Source: Streptomyces afghaniensis 772 (lineage in GTDB: Bacteria; Actinomycetota; Actinomycetes; Streptomycetales; Streptomycetaceae). Taken from it: 33,990 nucleotides of DNA. Shown here piece after piece: positions 8,986 to 28,697 of the stretch (its first letter is position 1; every line of letters begins with the position of its first letter). Both the position numbers and the translations under genes were made by a program. The stretch covers positions 1-33,990 of the forward strand of contig KE354169.1 in assembly GCA_000415505.1 (NCBI GenBank). The letters are read 5' to 3'. The notes beneath the pieces were generated by a model. It was not told the origin of the DNA, made no database searches, and saw only the letters and a list, made by a program, of their open reading frames with translations.

Positions 8986-10719
8986 CTAGCGCCTTACATA
9001 CACCTCGGCCGAGGCCGTTGCGCCCTCGTGCAGGTCGTCGCCCGGCCAGGTGACCGTGTAGGTCACCTCGCGGCGGGTGCGCGGCACGTCGTTGATCGTG
9101 AACGTGCCGTCCGCGGCGACGGTCACCGACGACAGCGTGCCCGTGCCGAGCCGGTCCTCGCGTACGACCTTGAGCACGGCCCGCTCGGGCAGCGCCTTGC
9201 CCCGGGCGGTGAACGTGCCGGTGATCTCGATGCCGCCGGACATGCTCGCCTCCTCGGGTGCGGCGAGCGCGATCGAGGTGGGCGCCTTGCCGACCGTCAC
9301 GGTGTGGGTGACGTCGGTGGCCGGACGGTGGGTCAGATCACCGAGGTACGACACCGTGTACGTGGCCTCGCCGACCAGGCCGGGCTCGTCGAGGACGGTG
9401 AAGGTGCCGTCGGCCTTGACGGTGGCGGTGCCGAGGTCGTGGGTGCCGTCGGCGTCCGTGCGGGTCGCCTTGACCTTCAGCGGCTCGGCGGGCGCGGGCC
9501 CGTCCTGCTCCAGCCTGCCGCGCACGGCCAGCGGCTCGCCCGCCACGGCCTGAGCGGGGCTGTGGGTGAGACCGCCGGTGAAGCGGGTGTCGTACTGGAC
9601 GGCGGGCGGCTTGATGACGTGCAGCCAGTACTGGCCGCCGGTCGCGTTGGTGGTGACCGCGAACAGCCGGGAGCCGTCCGCCGACCACTCCATGCCGCGC
9701 GGCACCACCCGGTCGCCGTCGAGGCTGCCCTCGAAGACGAACTCCAGCGGGGTGGTGGAGTCGCCCGGGTCGGCCGGCTGCACCAGCAGGTCGGGGACGG
9801 CACCGGTGGCGGCGGATCCGCGGGCGATGTACTTGCCGTCGCCGCTGAAGGCGACCGCGCTGGCGGTGGCACCTTCGGGCAGGGCCTGGTAGCCGGTCGC
9901 CGCGTCCGACAGGTCGCCGGTGTTCAGCAGCCGGGTGCCGGCGGTGGCGTCGGCGACGGCGACCTTGCTGCCGTCGGCGGACAGCGCCAGATCCTTGAGG
10001 TTCAGGGCGCCGTTGCCCGCGCCGTCGGCGAAGCGGCGCGCGGCGTTACGGACCAGGGCGCCGTTGCCGGTGTCGTACACGGCGAGGAAGGGGTCGGCCG
10101 CCTTCGCGTTGAGCGGCTGGCCCATGAGCATGCGGTCCCCGGCGCCGGACTCCAGCAGCAGATCGCCGTAGTCGTTCCAGCCCGTGTACGTGTACGCGCC
10201 GTTCACGACCCCCGCGAGGTGGGTCTCGGACGTGGCGCACTGGGAGACCGAGGACGCGTACGGCGCCGTGAAGTAGAGCTGGCCGCTGGACTGGGCGACC
10301 TCGCGGCCGCAGTAGTCGGTGCCGACGGAGGCGACGGTGGTGCGCTGGTAGGTGACGGTGTCGTAGGCCTCGATGCGGTCGCGCAGACCCGCGTACAGCT
10401 TGCTGCCGTCGGCGCTGACCGCGAGGCCCGAGACGTGGGCCTGGTTGGTGGTGAGGGTCGTCAGGCGCTCGCCCTCGAAGTTGTAGACGGCGATGGTGCC
10501 GGAGTTGAGGTAGTAGCCGACGTTGCTGTCCGCCACGAAGACACGCTGGTGGACGTTGTCGACGGCCAGTGCCGAGTACGACGAGATCGGCAGCTTGGCC
10601 ACGGCGTCGGAGGCCGCCGCGTGCGCCGCGGGCGCGGCGGCGACGGTGAGCCCGGTCCCGGCGAGGATCGCGGCGGACAACGTGGCCGCGAGCCGTCTGG
10701 AACGGTGTGCAGTATTCAA
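8986..10719 (-). CDS. Secreted beta-propeller protein with Ig-like C-terminal repeats
   Basis: This 577-residue protein has a signal peptide (HRSRR, hydrophobic 11-28, cleavage near AHA-A at about 35). Residues 40-365 contain repeated blade-like motifs (LAVSADGSKLYAG, LALSADGSKVAVAD, VAFSGDGKYIARG, MEWSADGSRLFAV) as in WD40/YVTN propellers. Two tandem Ig-like domains follow (about 370-470 and 475-577), each ending in an ADGTFT...V...R/Y-TYTV pattern ending in a D-L-H/T motif. It is probably exported and surface or matrix associated; there is no membrane anchor or LPXTG motif. The start is a TTG at 10719 preceded by GGGGGG; a start further upstream would run through non-protein-like sequence. 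No enzymatic motif is visible. Cell-surface binding is an inference. Confidence 0.75.
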   Translation of the reverse strand: MNTAHRSRRLAATLSAAILAGTGLTVAAAPAAHAAASDAVAKLPISSYSALAVDNVHQRVFVADSNVGYYLNSGTIAVYNFEGERLTTLTTNQAHVSGLAVSADGSKLYAGLRDRIEAYDTVTYQRTTVASVGTDYCGREVAQSSGQLYFTAPYASSVSQCATSETHLAGVVNGAYTYTGWNDYGDLLLESGAGDRMLMGQPLNAKAADPFLAVYDTGNGALVRNAARRFADGAGNGALNLKDLALSADGSKVAVADATAGTRLLNTGDLSDAATGYQALPEGATASAVAFSGDGKYIARGSAATGAVPDLLVQPADPGDSTTPLEFVFEGSLDGDRVVPRGMEWSADGSRLFAVTTNATGGQYWLHVIKPPAVQYDTRFTGGLTHSPAQAVAGEPLAVRGRLEQDGPAPAEPLKVKATRTDADGTHDLGTATVKADGTFTVLDEPGLVGEATYTVSYLGDLTHRPATDVTHTVTVGKAPTSIALAAPEEASMSGGIEITGTFTARGKALPERAVLKVVREDRLGTGTLSSVTVAADGTFTINDVPRTRREVTYTVTWPGDDLHEGATASAEVYVRR

Positions 10720-10958: not shown

Positions 10959-12788
10959 TCAGCCCAGGCGCTGCACCAGCGCGCGGTACTCGTCCCACAG
11001 TTCCTCGGGCGTGTGCTCGCCGAAGGTGTTGAGGTGCTCGGGGACCAGGGCGGCCTCCTCGCGCCAGACCTCCTTGTCGACCCTGAGCAGGAACTCCAGA
11101 TCGGAGTCGGCCAGCTCCAGGCCGTTGGTGTCGAGGGCATCCTTGGTCGGCAGGACGCCGATCGGCGTCTCGACGCCCTCGGCCGTGCCCTCCAGGCGCT
11201 CCACGATCCACTTCAGGACGCGGGAGTTCTCACCGAAGCCGGGCCAGACGAACTTGCCGTCGTCGTCCTTGCGGAACCAGTTGACGTAGTAGATCTTCGG
11301 CAGCTTGGACTGGTCCTTGTCCTTGGCCACGTCGATCCAGTGGGCCATGTAGTCGCCCATGTTGTAGCCGCAGAACGGCAGCATCGCGAAGGGGTCGCGG
11401 CGCAGTTCGCCGACCTTGCCCTCGGCGGCGGCGGTCTTCTCGGAGGCCACGTTGGCGCCGAGGAAGACGCCGTGGTTCCAGTCGAAGGACTCCGTCACCA
11501 GCGGTACGGCGGTGGCCCGGCGCCCGCCGAAGAGGATCGCCGAGATCGGCACGCCCTTGGGGTCCTCCCACTCGGGCGCGATGATCGGGCACTGGGCGGC
11601 GGGGACGGTGAAGCGGGCGTTGGGGTGGGCGGCCGGGGTCTCGGACTCGGGCGTCCAGTCATTGCCCTTCCAGTCGGTGAGGTGGGCCGGGGCCTCCTCG
11701 GTCATGCCCTCCCACCAGACGTCACCGTCGTCCGTCAGCGCGACGTTGGTGAAGACCGCGTTGCCCCACAGCGTCTTCATCGCGTTGGCGTTGGTGTGCT
11801 CGCCGGTGCCGGGCGCGACACCGAAGAAGCCCGCCTCGGGGTTGATGGCGTAGAGCCGGCCGTCCTCGCCGAAGCGCATCCAGGCGATGTCGTCGCCGAT
11901 GGTCTCGACCGTCCAGCCGGGGATGGTCGGCTCCAGCATGGCGAGGTTGGTCTTGCCGCAGGCGCTCGGGAAGGCGGCGGCGACGTACTTGGCCTCGCCG
12001 CGCGGCGGGGTCAGCTTCAGCACGAGCATGTGCTCGGCCAGCCAGCCCTCGTCACGCGCCATCACGGAGGCGATGCGCAGGGCGTAGCACTTCTTGCCGA
12101 GCAGGGCGTTGCCGCCGTAGCCGGAGCCGTAGGACCAGATCTCGCGGTCCTCGGGGAAGTGCGAGATGTACTTGGTCGTGTTGCAGGGCCAGGGGACGTC
12201 CTCCTGGCCGGGCTCCAGCGGGGCGCCCAGGGTGTGCACGGCCTTGACGAAGAAGCCGTCGGAGCCGAGCTCGTCGAGCACCGCCTGGCCCATGCGCGTC
12301 ATCGTGCGCATGGAGACGGCGACGTAGGCCGAGTCGGTGATCTCGACGCCGAGCGCGGACAGCGGGGAGCCGAGCGGGCCCATGCAGAACGGCACGACGT
12401 ACATGGTCCGGCCGCGCATCGAGCCGCGGAACAGGCCGCCCTGGCCCTCGGAGCCCTGGAAGATCTCCCGCATCTCGGCGGGGGCCTTCCAGTGGTTGGT
12501 CGGGCCCGCGTCCGCCTCCTTCTCGGAGCAGATGAACGTCCGGTCCTCCACGCGGGCGACGTCGGTGGGGTCGGAGGCCGCGTAGTAGGAGTGGGGGCGC
12601 TTGATCGGGTCGAGTTTGCGGAAGGTGCCCTTCTGGACGAGCTCCTCGCACAGTCGCTCGTACTCGGCTTCGGATCCGTCGCACCAGACCACGTTGTCCG
12701 GCTGGGTCAGCTCGGCGATCTCGTTCACCCACGAGATCAGGCCCTTATGGGTGGTGGGGACGGTGGGAGCCGCGATGTCGCGCGCCAC
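10959..12788 (-). CDS. pckG: Phosphoenolpyruvate carboxykinase (GTP)
   Basis: This 609-residue enzyme converts oxaloacetate and GTP to phosphoenolpyruvate, GDP and CO2, the first committed step of gluconeogenesis. Diagnostic GTP-class motifs are present: FPSACGKTN (kinase-1a P-loop with the reactive cysteine, about residue 275), [10 protein letters not shown] (metal-binding kinase-2), [16 protein letters not shown], and [11 protein letters not shown]. Length matches actinobacterial and animal GTP-type enzymes rather than the ATP type. The GTG at 12788 has AGGAG 5-6 nt upstream and gives [17 protein letters not shown], as in related proteins; an ATG at 12875 in frame would add an implausible 29 residues. 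Cytoplasmic and transcribed alone, with its own terminator. Confidence 0.97.
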
Positions 12789-13114
12789 GATTGCTCCTAA
12801 ATGAGGGATTTTTTTGATGTGGAGGCCCCGTGGGGGCTGCGACCCGGATGCTTCACGGTGAAACTTGGCGCTCATCCGGTGCCGACCGCACTCATTTGAT
12901 CATCCGACGCGTGCGCCCATCTGTCCAGAGGAGCGCACAGGTGAGCAACGTGAGGATCGCCACGGTTTCTCGCGCCCCTTTACATGCACGTTGGGTTCAC
13001 CTGACCGTTCGTTTGCGTAACCATCGTTCGGCCAGGATGAGAGGATGGCCACTCTTCATCGGCCAATCGACCCGACTGATGGGTCACTTACGGTTCCGTA
13101 GCTACCATTCGGCC
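12789..13114. other. 326-bp intergenic region between pckG and the hemolysin III gene
   Basis: This divergent control region contains a GC hairpin (GCCCCCAC/GGGGC, about 12826-12840 on the minus strand) and an A7 run in the pckG leader (plus-strand T run near 12809-12816). It also has an 11-bp palindrome TTCACGGTGAA (12852-12862), and a GTTCACCTGAC block (12995-13005) that only weakly resembles a PhoP box. A frame in phase with the hemolysin III gene runs back through it, but it contains TTA codons and poor composition, so I do not count it as coding. Confidence 0.5.
13103..13108 (+). promoter_or_regulatory. -10 hexamer TACCAT, leaderless start
   Basis: TACCAT ends 6 nt before the ATG at 13115, and there is no ribosome binding site, so a leaderless transcript is likely. 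No convincing -35 was seen. Confidence 0.4.
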
Positions 13115-13828
13115 ATGACTGCGTTCGCCCCCGACGCGCCTACGGACACGCCGGCCGACGGCCGTGGTCCGACGGCGCTCTCCCTGCCGCACCCGGTCAA
13201 GCCCAAACTGCGCGGCTGGCTGCACCTCGGCATGTTCCCGGCGGTTCTCGTCGCGGGACTGGTGCTGACCGCCCTCGCCGACTCGACCAGAGGGCGCATA
13301 GCCTGCGGGATCTTCGCACTGACGGCATGCCTGCTGTTCGGTGTGAGCGCGCTGTACCACCGGGGCGACTGGAGTCCGCGCATGGACGGCGTGCTGCGCC
13401 GCCTGGATCACGCCAACATCTTCCTGATCATCGCGGGCACCTACACTCCGCTGGCCATGCTGCTCCTGCCTGGCGCCAAGGGCGAGTGGCTGTTGTGGGG
13501 CATCTGGGCCGCGGCGGCGGCCGGCATCCTCTTCCGCGTCTTCTGGGTCGGCGCCCCGCGCTGGCTGTACACGCCGTGCTACATCGCGATGGGCTGGGCG
13601 GCCGTCTTCTACCTGCCGGACTTCATGCGGACCGGCGGCATCGCCGTCCTGGTCCTCGTCATCGTCGGCGGCGTGCTCTACAGCGCGGGCGGCGTGATCT
13701 ACGGGATCAAGCGACCCAACCCGTCACCGCGCTGGTTCGGCTTCCACGAGGTGTTCCACTCCTTCACCCTGGCGGCCTTCATCGCGCACTACGTGGGGAT
13801 CTCGCTGGTGGCCTACCAGCACGGGTAG
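13115..13828 (+). CDS. Hemolysin III / PAQR-family membrane protein
   Basis: This 237-residue protein has seven hydrophobic helices after a 34-residue polar N-terminus. It carries the hallmark residues of the hemolysin III (YqfA/PAQR-like) family: S78-ALYH82 in TM2-3, D98-H99 in RRLDHANIFLIIAGTYTP, and the C-terminal H211-x3-H215 and H225 (HEVFHSFTLAAFIAHY). In related receptors these polar residues bind a metal inside the membrane and have been linked to hydrolase activity. The name reflects historical hemolysis assays; a role in membrane lipid homeostasis is more likely. The start at 13115 was chosen from the -10 spacing. The downstream TetR gene follows after 36 nt, with its promoter overlapping this stop. 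Confidence 0.85.
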   Translation: MTAFAPDAPTDTPADGRGPTALSLPHPVKPKLRGWLHLGMFPAVLVAGLVLTALADSTRGRIACGIFALTACLLFGVSALYHRGDWSPRMDGVLRRLDHANIFLIIAGTYTPLAMLLLPGAKGEWLLWGIWAAAAAGILFRVFWVGAPRWLYTPCYIAMGWAAVFYLPDFMRTGGIAVLVLVIVGGVLYSAGGVIYGIKRPNPSPRWFGFHEVFHSFTLAAFIAHYVGISLVAYQHG

Positions 13829-13843
13829 TGACAGTGGGTAGTG

Positions 13844-13862
13844 ATTGACAGTTACTGTCGAT
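13844..13862. promoter_or_regulatory. TetR operator palindrome at a leaderless promoter
   Basis: ATTGACAGT and ACTGTCGAT flank a single central T, with one mismatch in 9-bp arms, giving a 19-bp palindrome. It contains TACTGT (13853-13858), whose end is 6 nt before the ATG at 13865. A further GACAGT occurs 17 nt upstream (13830-13835). The TetR protein encoded downstream probably binds here and represses itself. Confidence 0.6.
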
Positions 13863-13864
13863 TC

Positions 13865-14485
13865 ATGGCTGACGTCACGCCCGCCGACCGGCCCCCACTG
13901 GGACTCCGGGAGCGGAAGAAGATCAAGACCCGCCAGGCGATCCGCGCCGCGACCTACGCGCTGATCGAGGAGCAGGGTTACGACGCCACGACGGTCGAGC
14001 AGATCGCCGACCGGGCCGAGGTGTCGCCTTCGACCGTCTTCCGGTACTTCCCGACCAAGGAGGACATCGTCATCACCGACGAGTGGGACCCGGTGATACT
14101 GGCGGAGCTGCGGGCCCGGCCGGAGGACGAGTCGTGGGCCGACGTCCTGCGGCACGTGATGCGCACGGCCCTCGACCTGAGCCTCGCCGAGGAACCCGAG
14201 GTGACCCGGCTGCGGAGCCGGCTCGGGGTCGAGGTCCCCGCCGTCCGCGCCCGCATGACGGAGAGCATGGCGGCGACCGGCCGGCTGCTCCGCGAGGCCC
14301 TCGCCGAGCGCTCCGGGCTGGACCCCGACAGCCTGGAGCTCCGCGTCTTCGCCATGTCCGTGATGGGCGGGCTGCTGGAGGTCTCCCACTACTGGGCCGA
14401 GACCGGCCACCGGGACGACGTCCGGGAACTCGTCGACCGTGCCCTGGACGTCCTGGAACACGGCCTGACGACCGGAAAAGCCTGA
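13865..14485 (+). CDS. TetR-family transcriptional regulator
   Basis: This 206-residue protein has a typical TetR N-terminal helix-turn-helix: RERKKIKTRQAIRAATYALI, then EQIADRAEVSPSTVFRYFPTKEDIV (about residues 40-66). The alpha-helical C-terminal ligand domain (about 75-200) is of the MftR/AcyR-like type seen in many actinobacterial paralogues. The ATG at 13865 follows a -10-like hexamer by 6 nt without a Shine-Dalgarno; a GTG at 13841 lies within the operator and is less likely. The palindrome over the start indicates autoregulation. Its other targets may be the hemolysin III gene upstream or the Mut7-C gene 33 nt downstream. The ligand is unknown. Confidence 0.88.
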   Translation: MADVTPADRPPLGLRERKKIKTRQAIRAATYALIEEQGYDATTVEQIADRAEVSPSTVFRYFPTKEDIVITDEWDPVILAELRARPEDESWADVLRHVMRTALDLSLAEEPEVTRLRSRLGVEVPAVRARMTESMAATGRLLREALAERSGLDPDSLELRVFAMSVMGGLLEVSHYWAETGHRDDVRELVDRALDVLEHGLTTGKA

Positions 14486-15255: not shown

Positions 15256-15322
15256 GGGCGCCGCGGGGAACTGCGGGCCGTCGGTGGCTGGTCGCGCAGT
15301 TCCCCGCGCCCCTTGGAGGGCG
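15256..15322. terminator. Bidirectional terminator / intergenic repeat copy 2
   Basis: GCGGGGAACTGCG (15263-15275) and CGCAGTTCCCCGC (15295-15307) form a perfect 13-bp stem around GGCTGGTCGCG, then CCCCTTGGAGGGCG. It sits between convergent genes ending at 15250 and 15324. Its GGCTGGTCGCGC and CCCCGCGCCCCT blocks are shared with the element at 8896-8961. Confidence 0.8.
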
Positions 15323-15323
15323 T

Positions 15324-17729
15324 CTAACGCCTGGTCAGGTCCTTCTTGCCGCAGGCGATGCCGTCCCTGTCGCGGTCCAGCCCGAGCGGATCGTCCCTGC
15401 CGTTGACCTTCAGGCGGCCGTAGTCGTTCGCCTTGAGCCACGCACAGCGGGACGCCGTCGTCTTCTTCACCTCCGCCGGGAAGTCGGTCGGCACGCAGAC
15501 GTTGATCGAGCCGTAGTGCCGGTCGCAGCCGGAGATCGTCGGGCTGACCTTCTGTGCCACCCGCTTCTTGCCGGGGCCCGTGACCTTGCCCTCGGGCGCG
15601 TCCGCGAAGTCGTGGACATGGGCCGAGGCGTCCGTCGCCTTGAGCGCCTGCGGGCCCTGGAGGTGCACCCACTTCGCCACCGACGGCACCCCGTTCGCGT
15701 CCACCGCGAAGAGCATGTACCAGCCGGGCGGAGCCAGGTTGGGGTTGCTCGTCACGTTCAGGTCGACGTTGTCGCCGTCGACGGACAGTGGCAGGTCAAC
15801 GAACCGCTGGTTCGGGTCGGAGGAGTGCGTGACGGCGGCCGGACGGATCAGCTCGGCCTTGGCGATGGGCCGGTCGACGGTGATCCGCTGGGTGTCGCCG
15901 TAGTTCCACTCGGTGTCGATCACCGAGGTGATCGAGGGGCGCGGGCCCTTGAACAGATAGGGCGGGCTGTAGACCGACACGTCGTGGTTCCAGGAGCCGT
16001 TGCCCGGGTTGTCGCCGGTGGTCATCACCCGGCCGTCAGGGAGCAGGAACGCCGAGGAGTGGTAGCCGCGCGCCTCGGGGTCGACGGCCACCGGGTCGAA
16101 GGTCTCCGACGCGGGGTCGAAGATCGACGTCTCGTAGACCGGGTTGGCGCGGTTGTGCAGCGCGCCGCCCGTCTCCAGCACCTTGCCGTCGGGCAGGAGC
16201 ACGGCGGAGACGTACATCTTGCCCTGGTTCCCGGTCTGCGGCACCGGGCCGTTGCCCAGGTCGACCGTGCCCTGTGGGATCGGCGGCCCGGCCATGTACG
16301 CGGGGCTGGGCTGCTTGAGGTCGATGATGTCGGTCAGGCGGTTCGCCTCCGGGTTGGAGTCGATGTTGCCGCCTCCGAGGGTGAGGACCTTCTGGTCCTG
16401 TGCCGGGGGCAGCAGCACGCTGGCCGACTGGTCGCGCTCGTCCTTCTTCTGGAGGCCGGGGACCTGGGTGATGGTGTTGGCGCCGTAGTCGTAGATCGCC
16501 GAGCCGGTGCCGGGGATGTTGTTGCCGAAGACGTGGCTGCCCGAGTAGAAGAGGCGGCCGTCCTGCATGAGGATCATCGACGGGTACAGGCCCCAGTACG
16601 ACCAGGTCTGGTTGACCTTCCACAGCGGCTGCCACTGCTGCTCGGCCTCGGAGAACAGCTCGGCGGTGACCGAGCCGCTGGAGTCCTCGCGCAGGCCGCC
16701 GAAGGAGATGACGTCACCGTTGCCGAGGATCGTGGCCGACGGGTACCAGTGGCCGTCGTTCATGTCGTTGGTCTTCGTGTAGGCCTCGGTCTCCGGGTCG
16801 AAGATGTACGAGTCCTTGTAGCCCTGGTAGCCGACGCGGCCGTCCGCCGTCGGGTAGCCCTTGTTGCCGCTCATCACCAGCACGCGCCCGTCCTGGAGCT
16901 GCACATGGCCGGCGCAGAACATGTCCTTCGGTGTGGGGATGACCTTGTAGGAGCCGTTCGCCGGGTCGTAGACGGCCGAGGTGAAGGTGCCGGCCTTGAA
17001 CATCGACTCGTCGTTGCCGGAGCCCGCGATGAGCAGCACCTTGCCGTTGTGGAGGACGACGGAGTGCATGGAGCGGACCGGGTTCTTCGTGGGCAGCACG
17101 TCCCACGTGCCGTTGGCGCACTGCTCGGCCGTGCCGGTGCAGTCCGGCGGCGGGACCGGGGCGGCGACCTGCTCCATCGTGTAGTCGTCGGTGGTGGCCG
17201 AGCCGGTGCCGTAGACGGAGACGCCCCAGGAGATGCGGTCGGTGCCGGCCGGGACCTCGGGGGTGCGGACGGTGGCCTCGGTCCAGGTGCCGGCCATGTC
17301 CAGCGTCTTGAGGTCGGTCCAGTACTGCCAGCCGGCCGTCTTGTCGTGCCGGAAGAGGGTGACCGAGGCGTCCGGGGTGGTCGTCTTGTACCAGAGCCCG
17401 AGGTCGTACTGCCTGCCCGGCGTCACCACCGGCGCGCACTCGGCGGACTCGGTGATCAGGGCCTTGCGGTCGCCGTCGACACGGCGGGTCAGCTCGACCT
17501 TCATGGCCTTGGAGCCGGTGTGCGCGTCGGCCGTGGCGGTGAAGGTGAAGTCGTTGTCGCCCCAGCCGGACTTCTCCCAGCAGTACGGCATGTCGCCGGT
17601 GCCGGCGGTCTCGAAGCCGGGGTTCCTGATGAGGTTGGCGGCGGAGGCGGGCTGGGGTGCGGTCAGCAGGAGGCCGGCCGTGAGGGCGCCCACGCCGACG
17701 AGTGCGGTTCTTCTCCGGTACTTGTTCAC
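15324..17729 (-). CDS. Secreted copper-radical oxidase (GlxA/galactose oxidase family) with Excalibur-like tail
   Basis: This 801-residue protein starts at a GTG (17729, AAGGAGAG upstream) with a signal peptide (KYRRR, hydrophobic 8-24, ASA near 30). Residues 31-190 are a carbohydrate-binding-like beta sandwich, 205-590 a seven-bladed kelch domain, and 595-690 the galactose-oxidase C-terminal (DUF1929) domain. All copper-radical ligands are visible: C272 (MFCAGH) and Y329 (HWYPS) for the Tyr-Cys cofactor, Y556-H557 (RGYHSS), and H635 (VTHSSD). Residues 735-796 add cysteines and DRDRDGIAC, an Excalibur-type calcium motif not present in classical GlxA as I recall it. It probably oxidises an alcohol or aldehyde on an extracellular glycan to produce H2O2. 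Its GTGA overlap couples it to a glycosyltransferase gene. Confidence 0.9.
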   Translation of the reverse strand: MNKYRRRTALVGVGALTAGLLLTAPQPASAANLIRNPGFETAGTGDMPYCWEKSGWGDNDFTFTATADAHTGSKAMKVELTRRVDGDRKALITESAECAPVVTPGRQYDLGLWYKTTTPDASVTLFRHDKTAGWQYWTDLKTLDMAGTWTEATVRTPEVPAGTDRISWGVSVYGTGSATTDDYTMEQVAAPVPPPDCTGTAEQCANGTWDVLPTKNPVRSMHSVVLHNGKVLLIAGSGNDESMFKAGTFTSAVYDPANGSYKVIPTPKDMFCAGHVQLQDGRVLVMSGNKGYPTADGRVGYQGYKDSYIFDPETEAYTKTNDMNDGHWYPSATILGNGDVISFGGLREDSSGSVTAELFSEAEQQWQPLWKVNQTWSYWGLYPSMILMQDGRLFYSGSHVFGNNIPGTGSAIYDYGANTITQVPGLQKKDERDQSASVLLPPAQDQKVLTLGGGNIDSNPEANRLTDIIDLKQPSPAYMAGPPIPQGTVDLGNGPVPQTGNQGKMYVSAVLLPDGKVLETGGALHNRANPVYETSIFDPASETFDPVAVDPEARGYHSSAFLLPDGRVMTTGDNPGNGSWNHDVSVYSPPYLFKGPRPSITSVIDTEWNYGDTQRITVDRPIAKAELIRPAAVTHSSDPNQRFVDLPLSVDGDNVDLNVTSNPNLAPPGWYMLFAVDANGVPSVAKWVHLQGPQALKATDASAHVHDFADAPEGKVTGPGKKRVAQKVSPTISGCDRHYGSINVCVPTDFPAEVKKTTASRCAWLKANDYGRLKVNGRDDPLGLDRDRDGIACGKKDLTRR

Positions 17730-18919
17730 ACGGCTCTCCTTGCGGTGCGGCCGTCGCGCACGGGCTTCTCACCGGCCCGGCGCGGCAGGTAGACCAGCGC
17801 TTCGGTCGCCACGAAGCGCAGGACGAAAGTCGTCACCAGCGCGAGCGCGGTGGCGGACAGCACGCCCAGGTGCAACTGGTGCACGAACAGGGCGATCAGC
17901 GGGATACGCAGCACCAGATCGGCGTTGGCGAGCAGCGCGAACCGGCCCGCCCGGTCCCACCAGCGCCGGTGCCGGCGCCGCTCGCGGAACAGCAGGTGCT
18001 CGATGAGCACGAAGTTCCAGGCGACGCCGAGCTGGTTGGCGAGGATCTCCGCCGGTACGTAGTGCATGCCGGCGGCGGTCAGCGCCCACAGGCCGAGCAG
18101 GTTCGGCAGGAAGCCGGTGAGCCCGATCAGGCCGAAGCCGACCATGCGCGCGACCGGCGAGGCGGCGCGCAGCCCGGCCAGGTGGCGCAGGAACCGCAGG
18201 CCCTCCTGCGCGGTCGACTTGGACTCCCCGGCGAACCGGTCCTGGAAGACGAAGGGCACCTCGGTGACCTTGCGCGGGCGGCTGCGGACGGCGAGTTCGA
18301 GGAGGATCTTGTAACCGAGCGGCTGGAGCACCTCGGCGGTGACCGCGCTGCGGCGGATCGCGAAGAAGCCGCTCATCGGGTCGCTGATGCCGTGCAGCCG
18401 GCGCGGGAACAGTGCCTTGGTCAGCCAGGTCGCCCCGCGCGAGACGGCCACCCGGTAGCTGCCCGCGAGCCCGGCCCGGCTGCCGCCCTTGATGTACCGG
18501 GAGGCGACGACGAGCCCGGCGTTCGCCCGCTCGCCCGTGGCGACCAGGTCGGGCACCAGGGACGGCGGGTGCTGGCAGTCGCCGTCCATGACGACGATCC
18601 AGTCGGACGTGGCGGCCTTCAGTCCCTCGACGACCGCGCCGCCGAGCCCGCCCACCGGTTCCTGCCGGTGCAGGACGGTCACCGGGAAGGGGCAGTCCTG
18701 CGCCGCCTTCTCGATGACCTCGGGCGTGTCGTCGGTGGAGTCGTCCACGAAGAGGACTTCGCAGGGCAGCCGGGCGGGTACGGCCTCGGTGATCTGGTGC
18801 AGCAACTGCCGTACGTTCGCCGACTCGTTGAACGTCGGTACGACGATGGTGACGGCGCCCGGCTCGGGGATCTCGGCGGTCTCGACGACCTCTCCGGGGA
18901 CGGTGGACTCCTGGCTCAT
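17726..18919 (-). CDS. Polyprenyl-phosphate sugar synthase (GT2) fused to GtrA domain
   Basis: This 397-residue protein has an N-terminal dolichol-phosphate-mannose-synthase-like GT2 domain (about 20-245). VPTFNESANV binds nucleotide, D59-D60 is the first aspartate pair, and D112-G-D114 in VMDGDCQHPP is the metal-binding DxD. The C-terminal part (about 255-375) has four hydrophobic helices typical of GtrA, often linked to flipping or transfer of lipid-linked sugars. It should transfer a sugar from a nucleotide donor (mannose or glucose) to polyprenyl phosphate at the inner membrane. The ATG at 18919 overlaps the previous stop as ATGA, and its own stop overlaps the oxidase start as GTGA. The obvious acceptor of its product is the GT39-like enzyme encoded just upstream. 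Confidence 0.88.
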   Translation of the reverse strand: MSQESTVPGEVVETAEIPEPGAVTIVVPTFNESANVRQLLHQITEAVPARLPCEVLFVDDSTDDTPEVIEKAAQDCPFPVTVLHRQEPVGGLGGAVVEGLKAATSDWIVVMDGDCQHPPSLVPDLVATGERANAGLVVASRYIKGGSRAGLAGSYRVAVSRGATWLTKALFPRRLHGISDPMSGFFAIRRSAVTAEVLQPLGYKILLELAVRSRPRKVTEVPFVFQDRFAGESKSTAQEGLRFLRHLAGLRAASPVARMVGFGLIGLTGFLPNLLGLWALTAAGMHYVPAEILANQLGVAWNFVLIEHLLFRERRRHRRWWDRAGRFALLANADLVLRIPLIALFVHQLHLGVLSATALALVTTFVLRFVATEALVYLPRRAGEKPVRDGRTARRAV

Positions 18920-20565
18920 CGCGCGCCTCCGGCGGACGTCTGGATCTGGCGGATCTCGATGCGGTCCTCGCCGGTGCCGAAGGTGGCGACCGGGTCCGAG
19001 TGCTCCATGGCGGCCTTGACGTTGGGCAGGTCGGCCGCGTCGCGCCGCACGGTCGGCGAGGCGACGACGTAGTCCAGGTCCTTCCAGCCGCGCGGCATCG
19101 TCTTCGTCACCGCCGGGTCGAGGTCGGCCTTGTAGAACCAGATGACGCCGAGGCCCGGCCGGTAGCCCTGGTGCACCAGGTCCAGCCAGAGGGCGTCGTC
19201 GACCAGGACGCGGGTGCGCTCCGGGTGCTCGACCTCGGTGGCCAGCCACTTGGACGCGGCCTTGTAGGGGGCGTTGGCGTCGGTGGTGACGGCGGTGCGG
19301 GCGCCGTCGTACCAGTGCGGTACGACGTAGGCGCCGGCGGCGAGGGCGAGGACCGTGGCGAGCGCGTACCGGCCCACGCTGACGTACCGTTTCTCCGCCT
19401 CGGAGCGCCAGCGGCTCAGCACCGCGTGGGCGACGGAGGCGGTTCCTCCGGCGAGGACCAGGGCGAGGAACGGCAGGGCCTGGATGACGTACATCGCGGG
19501 CAGGTAGCCGTTGGGGCGCAGGGCCAGGGCGGCGAAGATCGCGACGGCCAGGGCGGGTCCGGCCAGGGCGCGCGCGGTGACGGACCAGCGCCAGGTGACG
19601 AGGAGCAGGAGGGCGCCCGCGAGGCCGCCGAGGGGCAGGATCCTGTCGTAGTACAGCCACGACTGGAGTACGCCCCAGGAGCCGGAGCCCTGGTCCAGGA
19701 TGAAGCCCGAACCGGGCCTGGTCATCTGGTACTTGACGCCGTCCCAGAGGGAGACGTGCCCGGCGCCCGGCAGCAGCTCGCCCTTGAGCAGGGCGAACAG
19801 CGGATACGAGAAGCCGATCAGGGCGCAGGCCGTGACGGCTCCGGTGAGGGCGAACTTGCGGGTGTCCTTGTGGCTGTGCCGCCACATGGTGAGGAACAGG
19901 GCCGGCAGGACGATGAGCATCGTCTCTTTGGTGAGGACGGCCGTGGCGGCCGCGATCCCGGCCCCGAAGTGGTGCCAGAGGTGGCGGCTCGGGGAGGCGG
20001 CCAGGGTGAAGGCCAGCAGCGTCCACATCACCGCGAGGTTGTCGAGGAAGATCTCCCGCTGGAGGACGACGGCCAGCGGCGAGAGGCCGAAGAACACCAT
20101 GCCGAGCGCGGCCGCCCAGCGGGGCAGGGCGAGGCGGCGGCCCAGGACGTAGACGAGGACCGCGCTGATGCCGCTGATCACCAGCATCGCGGCCCGCATG
20201 GTGCCGACCGTCATCGACTCGGGGCTGATCAACGCCGGGATCCAGGTCAGCACGGCGATCTGGATCCAGCCCAGCGGCGGGTGGTCGTACCAGTAGGTGT
20301 AGTGGGCCAGGCCGTTGCCCTGCTGGACCGACCAGGCCTGGGCGAGGTAGGTGCCCTCGTCGTCGCTGAGCGCCGGGTAGTCGGCGATGTTCCAGCCCTG
20401 CACGACGAGGATCGCCACGAGGAGGACACCGCACAGCAGCAGGTCGGACCGGGAGGAGCGCAGCCGGCTCGGCGGCTCCGGTCGTCGGTGGGCACCGGTG
20501 CGGGGCGCGGGCTGCCGCTGCGCGGGGACCTTGGCAGTGGTCACCGCGGGAAGGGTGGAGGTCAC
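18916..20565 (-). CDS. GT39/ArnT-like membrane glycosyltransferase
   Basis: This 549-residue integral membrane protein has a 40-residue basic cytoplasmic N-terminus, about 11 transmembrane helices and a C-terminal soluble domain (about 430-549). The acidic pair D69-E70 in LSDDEGTY after TM1 and the YDHPPLGW loop are hallmarks of GT-C protein mannosyltransferase/ArnT/GT83-type enzymes that use polyprenyl-phosphate sugars outside the membrane. The start is a GTG at 20565 overlapping the previous stop (GTGA); in-frame codons upstream lie in the preceding gene. Its donor probably comes from the DPM-synthase-GtrA protein encoded next, and the acceptor may be the glycan made by the first gene or a cell-surface protein. 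Acceptor identity is inference. Confidence 0.88.
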   Translation of the reverse strand: MTSTLPAVTTAKVPAQRQPAPRTGAHRRPEPPSRLRSSRSDLLLCGVLLVAILVVQGWNIADYPALSDDEGTYLAQAWSVQQGNGLAHYTYWYDHPPLGWIQIAVLTWIPALISPESMTVGTMRAAMLVISGISAVLVYVLGRRLALPRWAAALGMVFFGLSPLAVVLQREIFLDNLAVMWTLLAFTLAASPSRHLWHHFGAGIAAATAVLTKETMLIVLPALFLTMWRHSHKDTRKFALTGAVTACALIGFSYPLFALLKGELLPGAGHVSLWDGVKYQMTRPGSGFILDQGSGSWGVLQSWLYYDRILPLGGLAGALLLLVTWRWSVTARALAGPALAVAIFAALALRPNGYLPAMYVIQALPFLALVLAGGTASVAHAVLSRWRSEAEKRYVSVGRYALATVLALAAGAYVVPHWYDGARTAVTTDANAPYKAASKWLATEVEHPERTRVLVDDALWLDLVHQGYRPGLGVIWFYKADLDPAVTKTMPRGWKDLDYVVASPTVRRDAADLPNVKAAMEHSDPVATFGTGEDRIEIRQIQTSAGGAR

Positions 20566-21851
20566 GCGGGAACGTCCTCTCGGGTCACGGGAACGTCCTG
20601 CCGGCTCACGGCCGTCTCGTCGAGATGCGCGCCCACATGGGTCGTCAGCTCCCAGTCGTTGCGGCCGCGCTGCTCGCGCCATACGGCACGGACGGCCGCC
20701 CCGGCGAGCAGGACCTGGTAGAAGGGGCCGCCCAGGACCAGCTTCAGGTAGTGCGCGAACCGCACGCGCAGTCCGTACTGCTTGCCGAAGTCGTGCAGTC
20801 CGACGATCTCGAAGACGAAGGTGACCAGGGCGGTGACGGCCGGCAGGAAGGTGATGAAGGCGATGCCGACCGGTACGTCCAGGAACAGCGCGATCGCCAC
20901 GTTCAGCGGGATGATCAGGCCGGTGAAGGCCTGCATGAACGGTGTCATCAGGGTGTAGCGGGCGAGCAGCCGCTGCCCGAGGGTGGGCAGTTGCTTCCAG
21001 TCCTTCTTCCGGTACACCTGGAGGAACCCCTGGTTCCAGCGGGTGCGCTGCTTCAGCAGGGACATCAGCGAGCCCGGGGTCTCCTCCCGGGTCACCATGT
21101 CGGAGTCGTAGGCGACGACGACCTTCTTGCCGACGCTGGAGAGCCTGACGCCCAGGTCGCAGTCCTCGGCGAGGCAGTTCGGGTCCCAGCCGTCGGCTTC
21201 CCTGAGGACGTCCGTGCGGACGAAGACCGTGTTGCCGCCGAGCGGAATGAAACCTTTCTGCGCGTGCAGGTGGAGCCGCGAGCGGAACCAGAAGAAGTAC
21301 TCCAGGCAGTTGCGCAGGCTGTACCAGCTGGAGTGGAAGTTGATCAGCTGCACCCCGCCCTGGACGACGTCCGCGCCGGTGGTGCGGAAGGCGTGGTCGA
21401 CGTGGGCGAGGAGCTCGGGGTGGACCTGGTCCTCCGCGTCGAAGACGCCGACGACGTCGCCGCGGCAGTGCGGCAGTGCCGTGTTCATGGCCTTCGGCTT
21501 GTTCTTCTTCTCGTGGCGGTCGACGACGACCCGGACCCGTGGATCACGCGCCGCGGCCTGCTCGGCCACGGCGGTGGTCTCCGGGTCGTCGTGTCCGACG
21601 ATCACGATGATCTCGAAGTCGGTGTGGCTCGATTCCAGCAGCCGCTGGATCGTGTGGTCCAGCACCGCCTGTTCGTGCCGTGCGGGCAGCAGCAGCGAGA
21701 ACGAGACGTGCTCGGTCCCGTCCGGACTGCTGAACCGCGTGGAGGCGAGCACTTCCGGCGTACGCCAGGCGTGCATCTGCCACCACAGGGTGAACGCCGC
21801 CATCCAGAACAGGGCCAGTGAAACGGCAGCGATGAAGACAGACGTCAGCAA
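20562..21851 (-). CDS. Processive family 2 glycosyltransferase (cellulose/hyaluronan synthase-like)
   Basis: This 429-residue protein has an N-terminal transmembrane helix (3-25), a cytosolic GT2 domain (about 48-290) and two to three C-terminal hydrophobic segments (about 300-350 and 378-400). The D,D,D,QxxRW pattern of membrane polysaccharide synthases is complete: D138-A-E-D141, E229-D230 in AEDCDLG, and Q268-R-T-R-W272. It should polymerise a beta-linked sugar and feed it through its own channel. No PilZ domain is present, so it differs from c-di-GMP-regulated BcsA. The TTG at 21851 follows GGGGGGA and is the first gene of the four-gene coupled operon. Product (glucan, GlcNAc polymer or other) is not readable from sequence alone. 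Confidence 0.85.
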   Translation of the reverse strand: MLTSVFIAAVSLALFWMAAFTLWWQMHAWRTPEVLASTRFSSPDGTEHVSFSLLLPARHEQAVLDHTIQRLLESSHTDFEIIVIVGHDDPETTAVAEQAAARDPRVRVVVDRHEKKNKPKAMNTALPHCRGDVVGVFDAEDQVHPELLAHVDHAFRTTGADVVQGGVQLINFHSSWYSLRNCLEYFFWFRSRLHLHAQKGFIPLGGNTVFVRTDVLREADGWDPNCLAEDCDLGVRLSSVGKKVVVAYDSDMVTREETPGSLMSLLKQRTRWNQGFLQVYRKKDWKQLPTLGQRLLARYTLMTPFMQAFTGLIIPLNVAIALFLDVPVGIAFITFLPAVTALVTFVFEIVGLHDFGKQYGLRVRFAHYLKLVLGGPFYQVLLAGAAVRAVWREQRGRNDWELTTHVGAHLDETAVSRQDVPVTREDVPA

Positions 21852-21880
21852 ACAGATCCCCCCAGATCCCAGAACCCCCC

Positions 21881-21925
21881 GCCGTGACGGTCTATCTCAG
21901 CCATCACGGCACTGTGCAGAGATTA
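21881..21925 (-). promoter_or_regulatory. Promoter/leader of the glycan operon
   Basis: TAATCT on the minus strand (21925-21920) is a good -10, and would start transcription near 21913. The leader then contains GCCGTGA (minus strand) and its inverted copy TCACGGC (21904-21910 and 21881-21887, 16 nt apart), which can form a hairpin or bind a regulator, before the TTG at 21851. No clear -35 was identified. No terminator separates this from the gene ending at 21989 except the promoter itself. Confidence 0.4.
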
Positions 21926-21988
21926 AGGGGGAACTGTGAAGCCTGGGGGCCGTTCAGATAAAGAGCGTGTTGCCGTTGGTTCCCGACG

Positions 21989-27546: not shown

Positions 27547-27823
27547 AGCCCTGCTTCTGCTTGCCCTGGCCGGAGGCCTCCGCGTCCGCGGGCTCCGGTT
27601 CAGCCTGCTCGGCCTGCTCGGCCTTGGGGTCGGGAACCTGCGTGAAGTCGACCCTGTTCATGTGCCGGCTCATGGACTTCATCAGGGCCCACACCGCCAG
27701 GGCCATCGCCGCGAAGACGATGAAGCCGAGGACGCCGGGGGTGACCTTGTCCTCGTCGACCTCCTTGGCGAAGGTGACGAGGTGCGTCATTGCCAGGCTT
27801 GCGCTTGCGCTCATGTCAGGCAT
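27545..27823 (-). CDS. Small membrane protein overlapping mca
   Basis: This protein of up to 92 residues has an N-terminal segment ending VDEDKVTPGVLGF, one transmembrane helix (about 31-47, GFIVFAAMALAVWALMK), then KSMSRHMNRVDF and an acidic, Gln/Pro/Ala-rich tail. A small single-pass protein of this type commonly follows mca in actinobacteria. The start is uncertain: ATG at 27823 overlaps the mca stop by 8 nt, and ATG at 27814 lies 1 nt after it (TGACATG); neither has a Shine-Dalgarno, so coupling to mca translation is likely. Function unknown; a membrane partner for mycothiol detoxification is only a suggestion from synteny. Confidence 0.75.
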   Translation of the reverse strand: MPDMSASASLAMTHLVTFAKEVDEDKVTPGVLGFIVFAAMALAVWALMKSMSRHMNRVDFTQVPDPKAEQAEQAEPEPADAEASGQGKQKQG

Positions 27824-28697
27824 TGTCGCGGACGCCCGCGAAGAGGTCGTCCTCGGGGAGGGAGGTATCGACGAGGGACTTCGCCAGCTCGTACTCCTCC
27901 GTCGGCCAGACCTCCTTCTGGATGTCCATCGGCACCTTGAACCAGCCGCCGTCCGGGTCGATCTGCGTGGCGTGCGCGATCAGCGCCTTGTCGCGGATCT
28001 CGTAGAAGTCGCCGCAGGGGACGTGCGTGGTGAGCGTGCGCTCCTTCATCCCGAATTCGTCCCAGCGCTTGAGCCAGTCCCCGTAGGGCGACTCCAGACC
28101 CCGGTCGAGCATCGCCTGGTGCAGCGCCTCGGTGCGGGGGCGGTTGAAGCCCTGGTTGTAGTAGAGCTTCTGCGGCTGGTACGCGGGGCCGTACTCGGCC
28201 TCCGGGTACTTCTCGGTGTCCGCCGCCCCCTCGAACGCCACCATCGAGATCTTGTGGGTCATGATGTGGTCGGGGTGCGGGTAGCCGCCGTTCTCGTCGT
28301 AGGTCGTGATCACCTGCGGACGGAAGGAGCGGATCTTGCGCACCAGCTCACCGGCCGCGTGGTCGACGTCCTGCAGGGCGAAGCAGCCCTCCGGCAGCGG
28401 CGGCAGCGGGTCGCCCTCGGGCAGGCCCGAGTCGACGAAGCCGAGCCACTCCTGCTTGACGCCCAGGATCTCCCGGGCCTCGTCCATCTCCTTCTTGCGT
28501 ACCTCGTGGATGTGCTCCTCGACGTACTTGTCCCCCTGGAGCTTCGGATTGAGGATGGAGCCGCGTTCCCCGCCTGTGCAGGTCACGACCAGCACGTCCA
28601 CCCCCTCGGACACGTACTTGGCCATGGTCGCCGCGCCCTTGCTCGACTCGTCGTCGGGGTGGGCGTGAACGGCCATCAGTCGCAACTGGTCAGTCAA
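27816..28697 (-). CDS. mca: Mycothiol S-conjugate amidase
   Basis: This 293-residue zinc amidase of the LmbE/PIG-L family cleaves mycothiol S-conjugates to mercapturic acids for export and releases GlcN-Ins for recycling. The metal motif H13-P-D-D16 (VHAHPDDES) and H144 of GGYPHPDH are present, and long segments (GFVDSGLPEGDPLPPLP, YYNQGFNRPRTEAL, HATQIDP, WPTEEYELA) agree with mycobacterial Mca rather than MshB. The start is a TTG at 28697 with GAGGAA 7 nt upstream; an ATG 7 nt earlier is out of frame and meets a stop within five codons. It is divergent from the DUF4307 gene and overlaps the small membrane protein gene. It supports a mycothiol-producing actinobacterium. Confidence 0.97.
   Translation of the reverse strand: MTDQLRLMAVHAHPDDESSKGAATMAKYVSEGVDVLVVTCTGGERGSILNPKLQGDKYVEEHIHEVRKKEMDEAREILGVKQEWLGFVDSGLPEGDPLPPLPEGCFALQDVDHAAGELVRKIRSFRPQVITTYDENGGYPHPDHIMTHKISMVAFEGAADTEKYPEAEYGPAYQPQKLYYNQGFNRPRTEALHQAMLDRGLESPYGDWLKRWDEFGMKERTLTTHVPCGDFYEIRDKALIAHATQIDPDGGWFKVPMDIQKEVWPTEEYELAKSLVDTSLPEDDLFAGVRDNA

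Follow-up and report, generated by a model that had tools for sequence, protein, structure and literature searches.

A coupled four-gene operon in Streptomyces pairs a GlxA-type copper-radical oxidase with candidate glycan synthesis and decoration enzymes

Among bacterial copper-radical oxidases, a role at the cell surface is known mainly from the CslA–GlxA system, and the substrate of the oxidase in that system is not settled (PMC11022532). The window analysed here, a 33,990-nucleotide stretch of the Streptomyces afghaniensis 772 genome (contig KE354169.1), contains an oxidase of this kind beside three glycan enzymes. These genes may constitute a second actinobacterial glycan system, a dedicated one that would synthesise a polymer, add side sugars to it outside the membrane, and oxidise the product. 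We regard the odds on such a system as about even.

The coupled unit that the original prediction placed at 15324–21851 is present as described, with all four frames in the sequence and junctions formed by GTGA, ATGA, and GTGA overlaps (Table 1). Among the 103 loci with the same gene order, four-base overlaps are seen at the respective junctions in 101, 98, and 84, and these overlaps suggest that the four genes are co-produced. The predicted gene labels also held, as each protein scored above the Pfam cut-off (GT2; PMT; GT2 plus GtrA; GO-like E-set plus Glyoxal_oxid_N), and the genes are real and carry the catalytic residues of their families. Just 5′ of the expected GT2 start, a run of at least four G is found in all 29 aligned loci, and a loose form of the upstream footprint is found in 19 of them; no sigma factor clearly fits this footprint in the alignment.

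Table 1 Features of the operon and its oxidase in the window.
Feature	Position	Strand	Remarks
GT2 synthase, QxxRW type (P0001)	20562..21851	-	TTG start, 429 aa
PMT/ArnT-like GT-C transferase (P0002)	18916..20565	-	GTG start, 549 aa
Putative polyprenyl-phosphate sugar synthase fused to GtrA membrane domain (P0003)	17726..18919	-	ATG start, 397 aa
GtrA part of fusion gene	about 17792-18136	-	
Secreted AA5 copper-radical oxidase, GlxA kind (P0004)	15324..17729	-	GTG start, 801 aa
Upstream region, presumed promoter and leader	21852..21988	-	Conserved footprint in alignment of 29 loci
Signal-peptide-like oxidase start ending in ASA	17640..17729	-	By eye
CBM_4_9-like N-terminal domain of oxidase	17145..17639	-	
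GO-like E-set domain of oxidase	15663..15941	-	PF09118, 91-95 bits
Excalibur-like C-terminal domain of oxidase	15327..15527	-	Weak Pfam match

Synteny in relatives was as anticipated, the four-gene order being kept in 103 of the 131 loci examined. Carriers of the operon include S. viridochromogenes DSM 40736 (L084) and S. lincolnensis (L089). Across 81 Streptomyces genomes, 31 have an ortholog of the oxidase. All of these have the transferase too, one further genome has only the transferase, and the remaining 49 have neither gene; the oxidase accompanies the transferase in 31 of 32 genomes. In family f18 and genus g116 the same four parts occur in a cyclically permuted order; this clustering is seen in both g116 loci and in eight of the nine f18 loci fetched, the exception lying on a 4.5-kb contig. 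Family f18 is probably Frankiaceae, because, among other actinobacteria, GlxA-like proteins are reported from Frankia alone (PMC3543389) and because the f18 cslA-glxA genes adjoin sco, as is also reported for Frankia (PMC4736821). A gene for a Sco copper chaperone, absent from the window, adjoins the oxidase gene in all 11 fetched f18 and g116 loci; the three that were scanned match PF02630 at 100–112 bits (cut-off 22.8), with the CxxxC motif as CPDVC in P0005 and P0009, and the others were identified by tblastn. Sco is also of importance to the oxidase of the CslA–GlxA system, as GlxA maturation in S. lividans requires it (PMC4736821). A single chromosomal site across relatives holds no operon, the version found in the window, or a rearranged version 59% identical to it, and the tree of the rearranged version conflicts with that of its flanks (AU p 3e-5). 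The operon genes have thus been inherited, rearranged, lost, and exchanged together. We count several observations against the preferred explanation: G073 has a transferase (59%) without the oxidase type of the operon; the fusion gene is absent genome-wide from Streptomyces G002, G021, and G035, where the best relatives are 31–33% identical; and the fusion gene was not found in 20 kb of locus L215.

The QxxRW motif predicted for the GT2 is present (Q268, R271, W272), and these residues together with D138, E140, E229, and D230 are invariant in all 23 rows of the alignment, so that the protein fits the QxxRW, ED, and acidic metal motifs of processive synthases throughout. A profile built from 20 orthologs has cellulose synthase BcsA as its best match in the PDB (E 5e-10). 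Searched as a single sequence, the GT2 instead has 6yv7, a GT2 of another type, as its best PDB match (E 4e-7); this search does not favour a processive enzyme and, like a crude hydropathy scan that finds only about three membrane spans, is counted against the preferred explanation. No NCBIfam model was matched by the GT2.

The two middle genes point to a lipid-linked sugar pathway. The fusion protein combines Pfam GT2 (PF00535) with GtrA_DPMS_TM (PF04138), is similar to the dolichyl-phosphate mannose synthase of P. furiosus (5mlz, E 1e-53), and has a DxDxQ motif that is invariant in 19 of 19 aligned rows (D112, D114, Q116); given this similarity, mannose is our best guess for the sugar that it would load. 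The transferase matches Pfam PMT (PF02366) at 33.6 bits (cut-off 22.7) and has an invariant D69-E70 pair (23 of 23 aligned rows). Its sequence has no match in the PDB and its profile only one chance match; its low-confidence model (mean pLDDT 56) has a GT-C fold matching OST, AglB, ArnT, Pmt4, and AftD. Its family and the neighbouring gene suggest that it uses a polyprenyl-phosphate sugar. The GtrA/GtrB, ArnC/ArnT, and DPMS/PMT pairs likewise place a GT-C transferase next to a polyprenyl-phosphate sugar synthase that carries a GtrA domain, but in the operon this pair is coupled to a QxxRW GT2 and a copper oxidase.

The copper-site residues of the oxidase (C272, W328, Y329, Y556, H557, and H635) are conserved in 30 of 30 rows, each of which shows the AA5 signature of a Cys-Tyr cofactor, an axial Tyr, and a pair of His ligands to the copper. 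The cross-linked residue of GlxA is reported as C121 (PMC4736821). The core of the oxidase model (mean pLDDT 62) is recognised as GlxA, and GlxA structures head its fold matches; copper-dependent oxidation of primary alcohols or aldehydes is predicted for the protein. An addition to the earlier description is a pair of terminal domains, CBM_4_9-like at the N-terminus and Excalibur-like at the C-terminus. The former matches in the window oxidase with E 0.0019 and 19.0 bits, under the cut-off of 25.9, and 7 of 13 relatives match it with E no higher than 1, the strongest at 2e-5; a slightly shorter slice of the region gives no CBM_4_9 match, and the N-terminal profile finds nothing in the PDB up to E 1. 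The latter matches with E 0.035 and 14.9 bits (cut-off 22), and in genus g116 it is a separate frame that overlaps the oxidase gene by four bases (L217, L218). Two lineages carry different sugar-binding modules on the oxidase, CBM_4_9-like in one and PA14 in the other (L184).

In the mechanism that we favour, the GT2 would polymerise an activated sugar and extrude the chain. The fusion protein would load a sugar onto polyprenyl phosphate, its membrane domain helping to present the sugar outside, and the GT-C enzyme would add this lipid-linked sugar to the chain, as it emerges, to form a side group. The oxidase would be exported, anchored to the glycan or the wall through the CBM-like and Excalibur-like domains, and given its copper by a Sco chaperone; it would then turn primary alcohols of the glycan into aldehydes with release of H2O2, and the aldehydes would permit cross-linking. 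Of the original make-decorate-oxidise reading, the functional linkage of the genes has gained support from the intact rearranged clusters, the Sco gene in some of these, co-occurrence, and presence, absence, or exchange as a block; for the polymer, the donor sugar, the acceptor of the side sugar, the oxidase substrate, and cross-linking, the identities and roles are ones that we infer.

One alternative is that the oxidase mainly activates the GT2 by serving as its structural partner, with redox chemistry secondary. The CslA–GlxA complex is reported to suffice for cellulose synthesis in vitro, and CslA activity falls when the extracellular part of GlxA is truncated (PMC11022532); given that GlxA serves CslA as a partner, the main role here too may be something other than oxidation, which we count against the preferred explanation. 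The window oxidase, however, has a signal-peptide-like start and no stretch that reaches the membrane-span threshold in a hydropathy scan, in contrast to the anchored GlxA, and both the invariant copper site and the Sco gene kept beside the oxidase in two other lineages argue against the idea, which we consider unlikely. Equally improbable in our view is that the fusion protein and the GT-C enzyme glycosylate another acceptor, such as secreted proteins or wall teichoic acid, on which the oxidase would act while the GT2 makes a separate glycan. Oligosaccharyltransferases and Pmt4 are among the closest structures to the low-confidence transferase model besides ArnT, but the GT2 remains with the other three genes through three arrangements, and locus L200, of which 20 kb were read, has a GT2–transferase pair (43% and 29%) and no oxidase in that span; the pair links the transferase to the GT2 even as we count the locus against the preferred explanation. 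Copper-radical oxidases make H2O2, and this typical activity would allow the protein, once secreted, to supply H2O2 for signalling, for defence, or to peroxidases, with the glycan genes only anchoring it; we find this very doubtful, as the oxidase is tightly coupled to the three glycan enzymes in every fetched lineage that has this oxidase type and enough flanking sequence.

The CslA–GlxA(–CslZ) apical cellulose system of Streptomyces likewise couples a GT2 synthase to a GlxA-type AA5 oxidase (PMC11022532, PMC4736821, PMC3543389), and an extra cslA-glxA copy is reported in three species (PMC3543389). That the operon is a diverged duplicate of this locus is nonetheless barely credible and was rejected, even though its oxidase is a GlxA relative. 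The genome has its own pair on another contig, with CslA on C431, and the GT2 is only 22% identical to this CslA over 316 residues; the oxidase scores 404 bits against the GlxA equivalog NF052501, short of the cut-off of 800, whereas the genome's own GlxA scores 1144. In a 30-row tree, which drew a warning from the program about long branches meeting, the oxidase and GlxA form two clades each supported at 100/99, and both types occur in two families. The predicted separateness from cslA and glxA and the pairing of the oxidase with another synthase plus an added lipid-linked sugar pathway were thus borne out: compared with CslA–GlxA, the operon has another GT2 and two extra genes, and its oxidase has the terminal domains, no membrane span found, and a clade of its own. 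We place at even chances that the operon encodes a self-contained system for a surface glycan, with a GlxA paralogue as its oxidase and other parts unlike those of CslA–GlxA. Chance neighbourhood was rejected on the kept order, co-occurrence, and presence, absence, and exchange as a block.

No described system with these four parts was found in searches of open-access papers, in line with the original prediction. In Stigmatella aurantiaca, fbfB is a galactose-oxidase-like gene needed for development that lies next to a glycosyltransferase gene, but the description available is of one divergently transcribed transferase and mentions no lipid-linked sugar genes (PMC3543389). Only one such oxidase is reported for S. 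coelicolor (PMC3543389). This may be why the operon has been overlooked so far, and it makes the species a clean test host. Through a second independent pairing, in which the synthase differs and a side-sugar pathway is explicit, the target of such oxidases becomes testable.

More tentatively, the operon may be a swappable polysaccharide locus, with its own copper chaperone in some lineages, in which a dedicated oxidase would turn lipid-linked side sugars into aldehydes and so give a self-cross-linking coat. Capsule and O-antigen loci are swappable surface-polysaccharide loci, and the operon may be likened to them in its fixed site, its empty, version A, or version B states, and its tree conflict with the flanks. 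The alternation of versions at a fixed locus suggests that surface glycans vary in this way between species of filamentous actinobacteria; unlike at capsule and O-antigen loci, only two versions of the operon were seen, and they share all four parts.

The four genes named in the original prediction were all found, with each of the three overlaps in place, in the window, a 33,990-base contig (C464) of a 9.85-Mb Streptomyces genome, and the observation is confirmed. In a structure-sequence search, the fusion protein had a far better match (E 1e-53) in the dolichyl-phosphate mannose synthase of Pyrococcus than in ArnC (2e-11), and its residues D112, D114 and Q116 are kept in 19/19 aligned rows. 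The transferase retains D69-E70 in all 23 rows of its alignment; its low-confidence model gave 16 matches at E ≤0.001, to oligosaccharyltransferases, ArnT, Pmt4 and AftD. The top PDB match of the GT2 profile was BcsA, whereas the single sequence favoured 6yv7. The oxidase is predicted on good evidence to be a working copper oxidase, since all 30 aligned oxidases keep six active-site residues (C272, W328, Y329, Y556, H557, H635). It bears a CBM_4_9-like domain; an oxidase from another actinobacterial family (f18, locus L184) bears three PA14 domains instead. One kind of enzyme thus has differing modules, and both plausibly serve to hold a polymer.

Features of the window, with positions, strand and remarks
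Feature	Position	Strand	Remarks
Four-gene operon	21851-15324	minus	gene ends overlapping as GTGA, ATGA, GTGA
GT2 with QxxRW			429 aa
PMT-like GT-C transferase			549 aa
GT2 fused to GtrA domain			397 aa
AA5 oxidase			801 aa
Short repeat at operon 3′ end	15284-15324		matches several other places in locus L219; hairpin-like by eye
Conserved upstream footprint	21852-21988		GAAAC... followed by CTTCACAG, plus CC-rich and TAnT stretches
Predicted protein	8986-10680		beta-propeller-like and Ig-like matches; beside PEPCK
Protein of ~1050 aa	24298-27447		by eye, P-loop ATPase part and repeat-rich C-terminal half
PIG-L type de-N-acetylase	27816-28676		~6 kb upstream of operon

Because of these family matches and modules, we infer a course in which a polymer would be synthesised, a lipid-linked sugar loaded, the polymer decorated outside the membrane and the product oxidised to aldehydes. 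The earlier proposal of a glycan made, decorated outside and oxidised is supported in part; every predicted step fits its enzyme family. A scaffold role for the oxidase is allowed by analogy, as PMC11022532 provides such a precedent for GlxA; the acceptor of the transferase could be protein or teichoic acid. Several points count against the four-step reading: three genomes have no fusion gene anywhere, and there a general polyprenyl-phosphate-sugar synthase might substitute; one genome (G073) has the transferase without an operon-type oxidase; and another (G055, locus L200, 6855-10242) pairs a GT2 (43% identity) with a PMT-like transferase (29%) with no oxidase within the 20 kb read around them. 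A histidine kinase of PAS type and a response regulator of LuxR type follow downstream of this pair.

The operon is not cslA-glxA itself: that pair (668 and 646 aa) is encoded on another contig (C431) of the same genome, the window GT2 and CslA share only 22% identity across 316 residues, and the NCBI GlxA model scores the genome's own GlxA at 1144 and the window oxidase at 404 (cut-off 800). The proposed tree of the oxidase against GlxA agreed. Among its 30 rows (22 operon type; 5 GlxA, namely the genome's own and four f18 copies; 3 others), operon-type oxidases of Streptomyces and f18 form one clade and GlxA a separate one, each at 100/99, although the program flagged long branches coming together at the joins between clades. 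As f18 genomes G117 and G310 hold both types, the split probably predates the divergence of the two families. The three remaining rows (L194, L195, L196) form a third, GlxA-like group from other genera of the class, and the four-gene cluster was absent from the stretches read.

Of 81 Streptomyces genomes, counting the window's own, 31 have an ortholog of the oxidase; it is full-length in 30, at 61-100% identity, and truncated by the end of a contig in G028. The transferase (at least 49% identity) occurs in 32, the same 31 and G073; G055 and G069 have relatives at only 31-32% identity. The resulting table (31/0/1/49) gives a Fisher p of 1e-21, a strength overstated by kinship between genomes. 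In G043, left out of the oxidase count, adjoining GT2 and oxidase fragments (L071, 8001-9499; oxidase 55% identical over 237 residues) seem to be an operon copy in decay.

Conservation of gene order in relatives was borne out by a survey of 131 loci with 124 different oxidase sequences: GT2, transferase, fusion and oxidase genes follow one another on one strand in 103 (99 distinct), including 24 of 31 loci of the genus and 77 of 80 named loci (the best 80 of 319), the other three being short contigs that end inside the operon. The 28 exceptions include eight (L153-L160) with 1.5-kb flanks and nine of f18. Four-base overlaps are kept at the three junctions in 101, 98 and 84 of the 103, and a loose pattern of the upstream footprint in 19 of 29 loci.

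As regards other ARRANGEMENTS, 296 genomes of the class were searched and 13 of them, all of f18, have the operon-type oxidase at 49-58% identity; loci of nine were fetched. Eight read fusion, oxidase, Sco (SCO1/SenC copper chaperone), GT2, transferase on one strand; the ninth, a 4.5-kb contig, shows oxidase and Sco. Within the window's family, 66 genomes from other genera were searched and four have this oxidase: L215, L216 and two of one genus (g116; L217, L218), the last two reading oxidase, Excalibur-like frame, Sco, GT2, transferase, fusion. The Streptomyces, f18 and g116 orders are cyclic permutations of each other. The Excalibur-like part, fused to the oxidase in Streptomyces, has a frame of its own in g116, which shares four bases with the oxidase gene. 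L215 reads GT2, transferase, oxidase, with the fusion gene absent from the 20 kb read.

Sco adjoins the oxidase in 9/9 f18 and 2/2 g116 loci, and also lies near four fetched f18 GlxA-type loci, three with cslA visible; at E 1e-5 it was not found in the window or in any of the 30 loci L042-L071 of Streptomyces, nor is it in view on the 7.5-kb contig of L194, an f18 oxidase of the third group. PMC4736821 places sco beside cslA-glxA in Frankia and at another location in S. lividans, a species in which GlxA maturation requires it. Two f18 contigs have another oxidase copy further upstream (L181, 12865-14954; L185, 14448-16911), whose Excalibur-like part has its own frame; the L181 copy clusters with Streptomyces operon oxidases. 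Upstream of the L184 cluster lies an FAD-linked oxidase with iron-sulphur domains (11176-14199).

The operon is flanked by a thioredoxin-domain gene on one side and a Mut7/TetR/hemolysin-III/PEPCK block on the other. In a relative (G026; outer flanks 91-94% identical, TetR-Mut7 stretch 79%), ~6.7 kb (window 15315-21988) is swapped for ~12 bases, the right-hand edge being approximate as it sits in a short repeat also matching elsewhere in that locus. Of the 50 genomes without an ortholog, 21 were looked at. The distance from the thioredoxin-domain gene to PEPCK, 9.1 kb in the window, is 0.9-4.3 kb in 16 of them, 6.2 kb in one and 23-28 kb in three; in one the two genes are on different contigs. 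A second version, in which the transferase gene is followed on its strand by the oxidase gene while GT2 faces the other way, occupies the site in three Streptomyces genomes (L069, L070, L197) and one genome of another genus (L216); its GtrA gene lies behind GT2 in L069, L070 and L216 and on a separate contig in the genome of L197.

L069 and L070 are 89-90% identical to the window in the flanks and 59% in the operon genes. In the flank tree they sit next to the window (95/95), and a single clade for the second version is rejected (AU p 3.4e-5); the group for this test was picked after the operon was seen, and L216 has data in less than half of the flank alignment. A tree of the operon genes recovers that version as a single clade (100/100), and a grouping of the window and L042 with L069 and L070 is rejected there (AU p 2.5e-6). 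Given this conflict, it appears that one whole operon version has been exchanged for another at a fixed site, which is the pattern of surface-polysaccharide loci. Searches of open-access papers listed no description of the four-gene system, which is no proof of its absence from print. The operon is a variant among systems that join a GT2 to a copper oxidase; it has a branch for a lipid-linked sugar, is linked in some lineages to a copper chaperone, and occupies a swappable locus.
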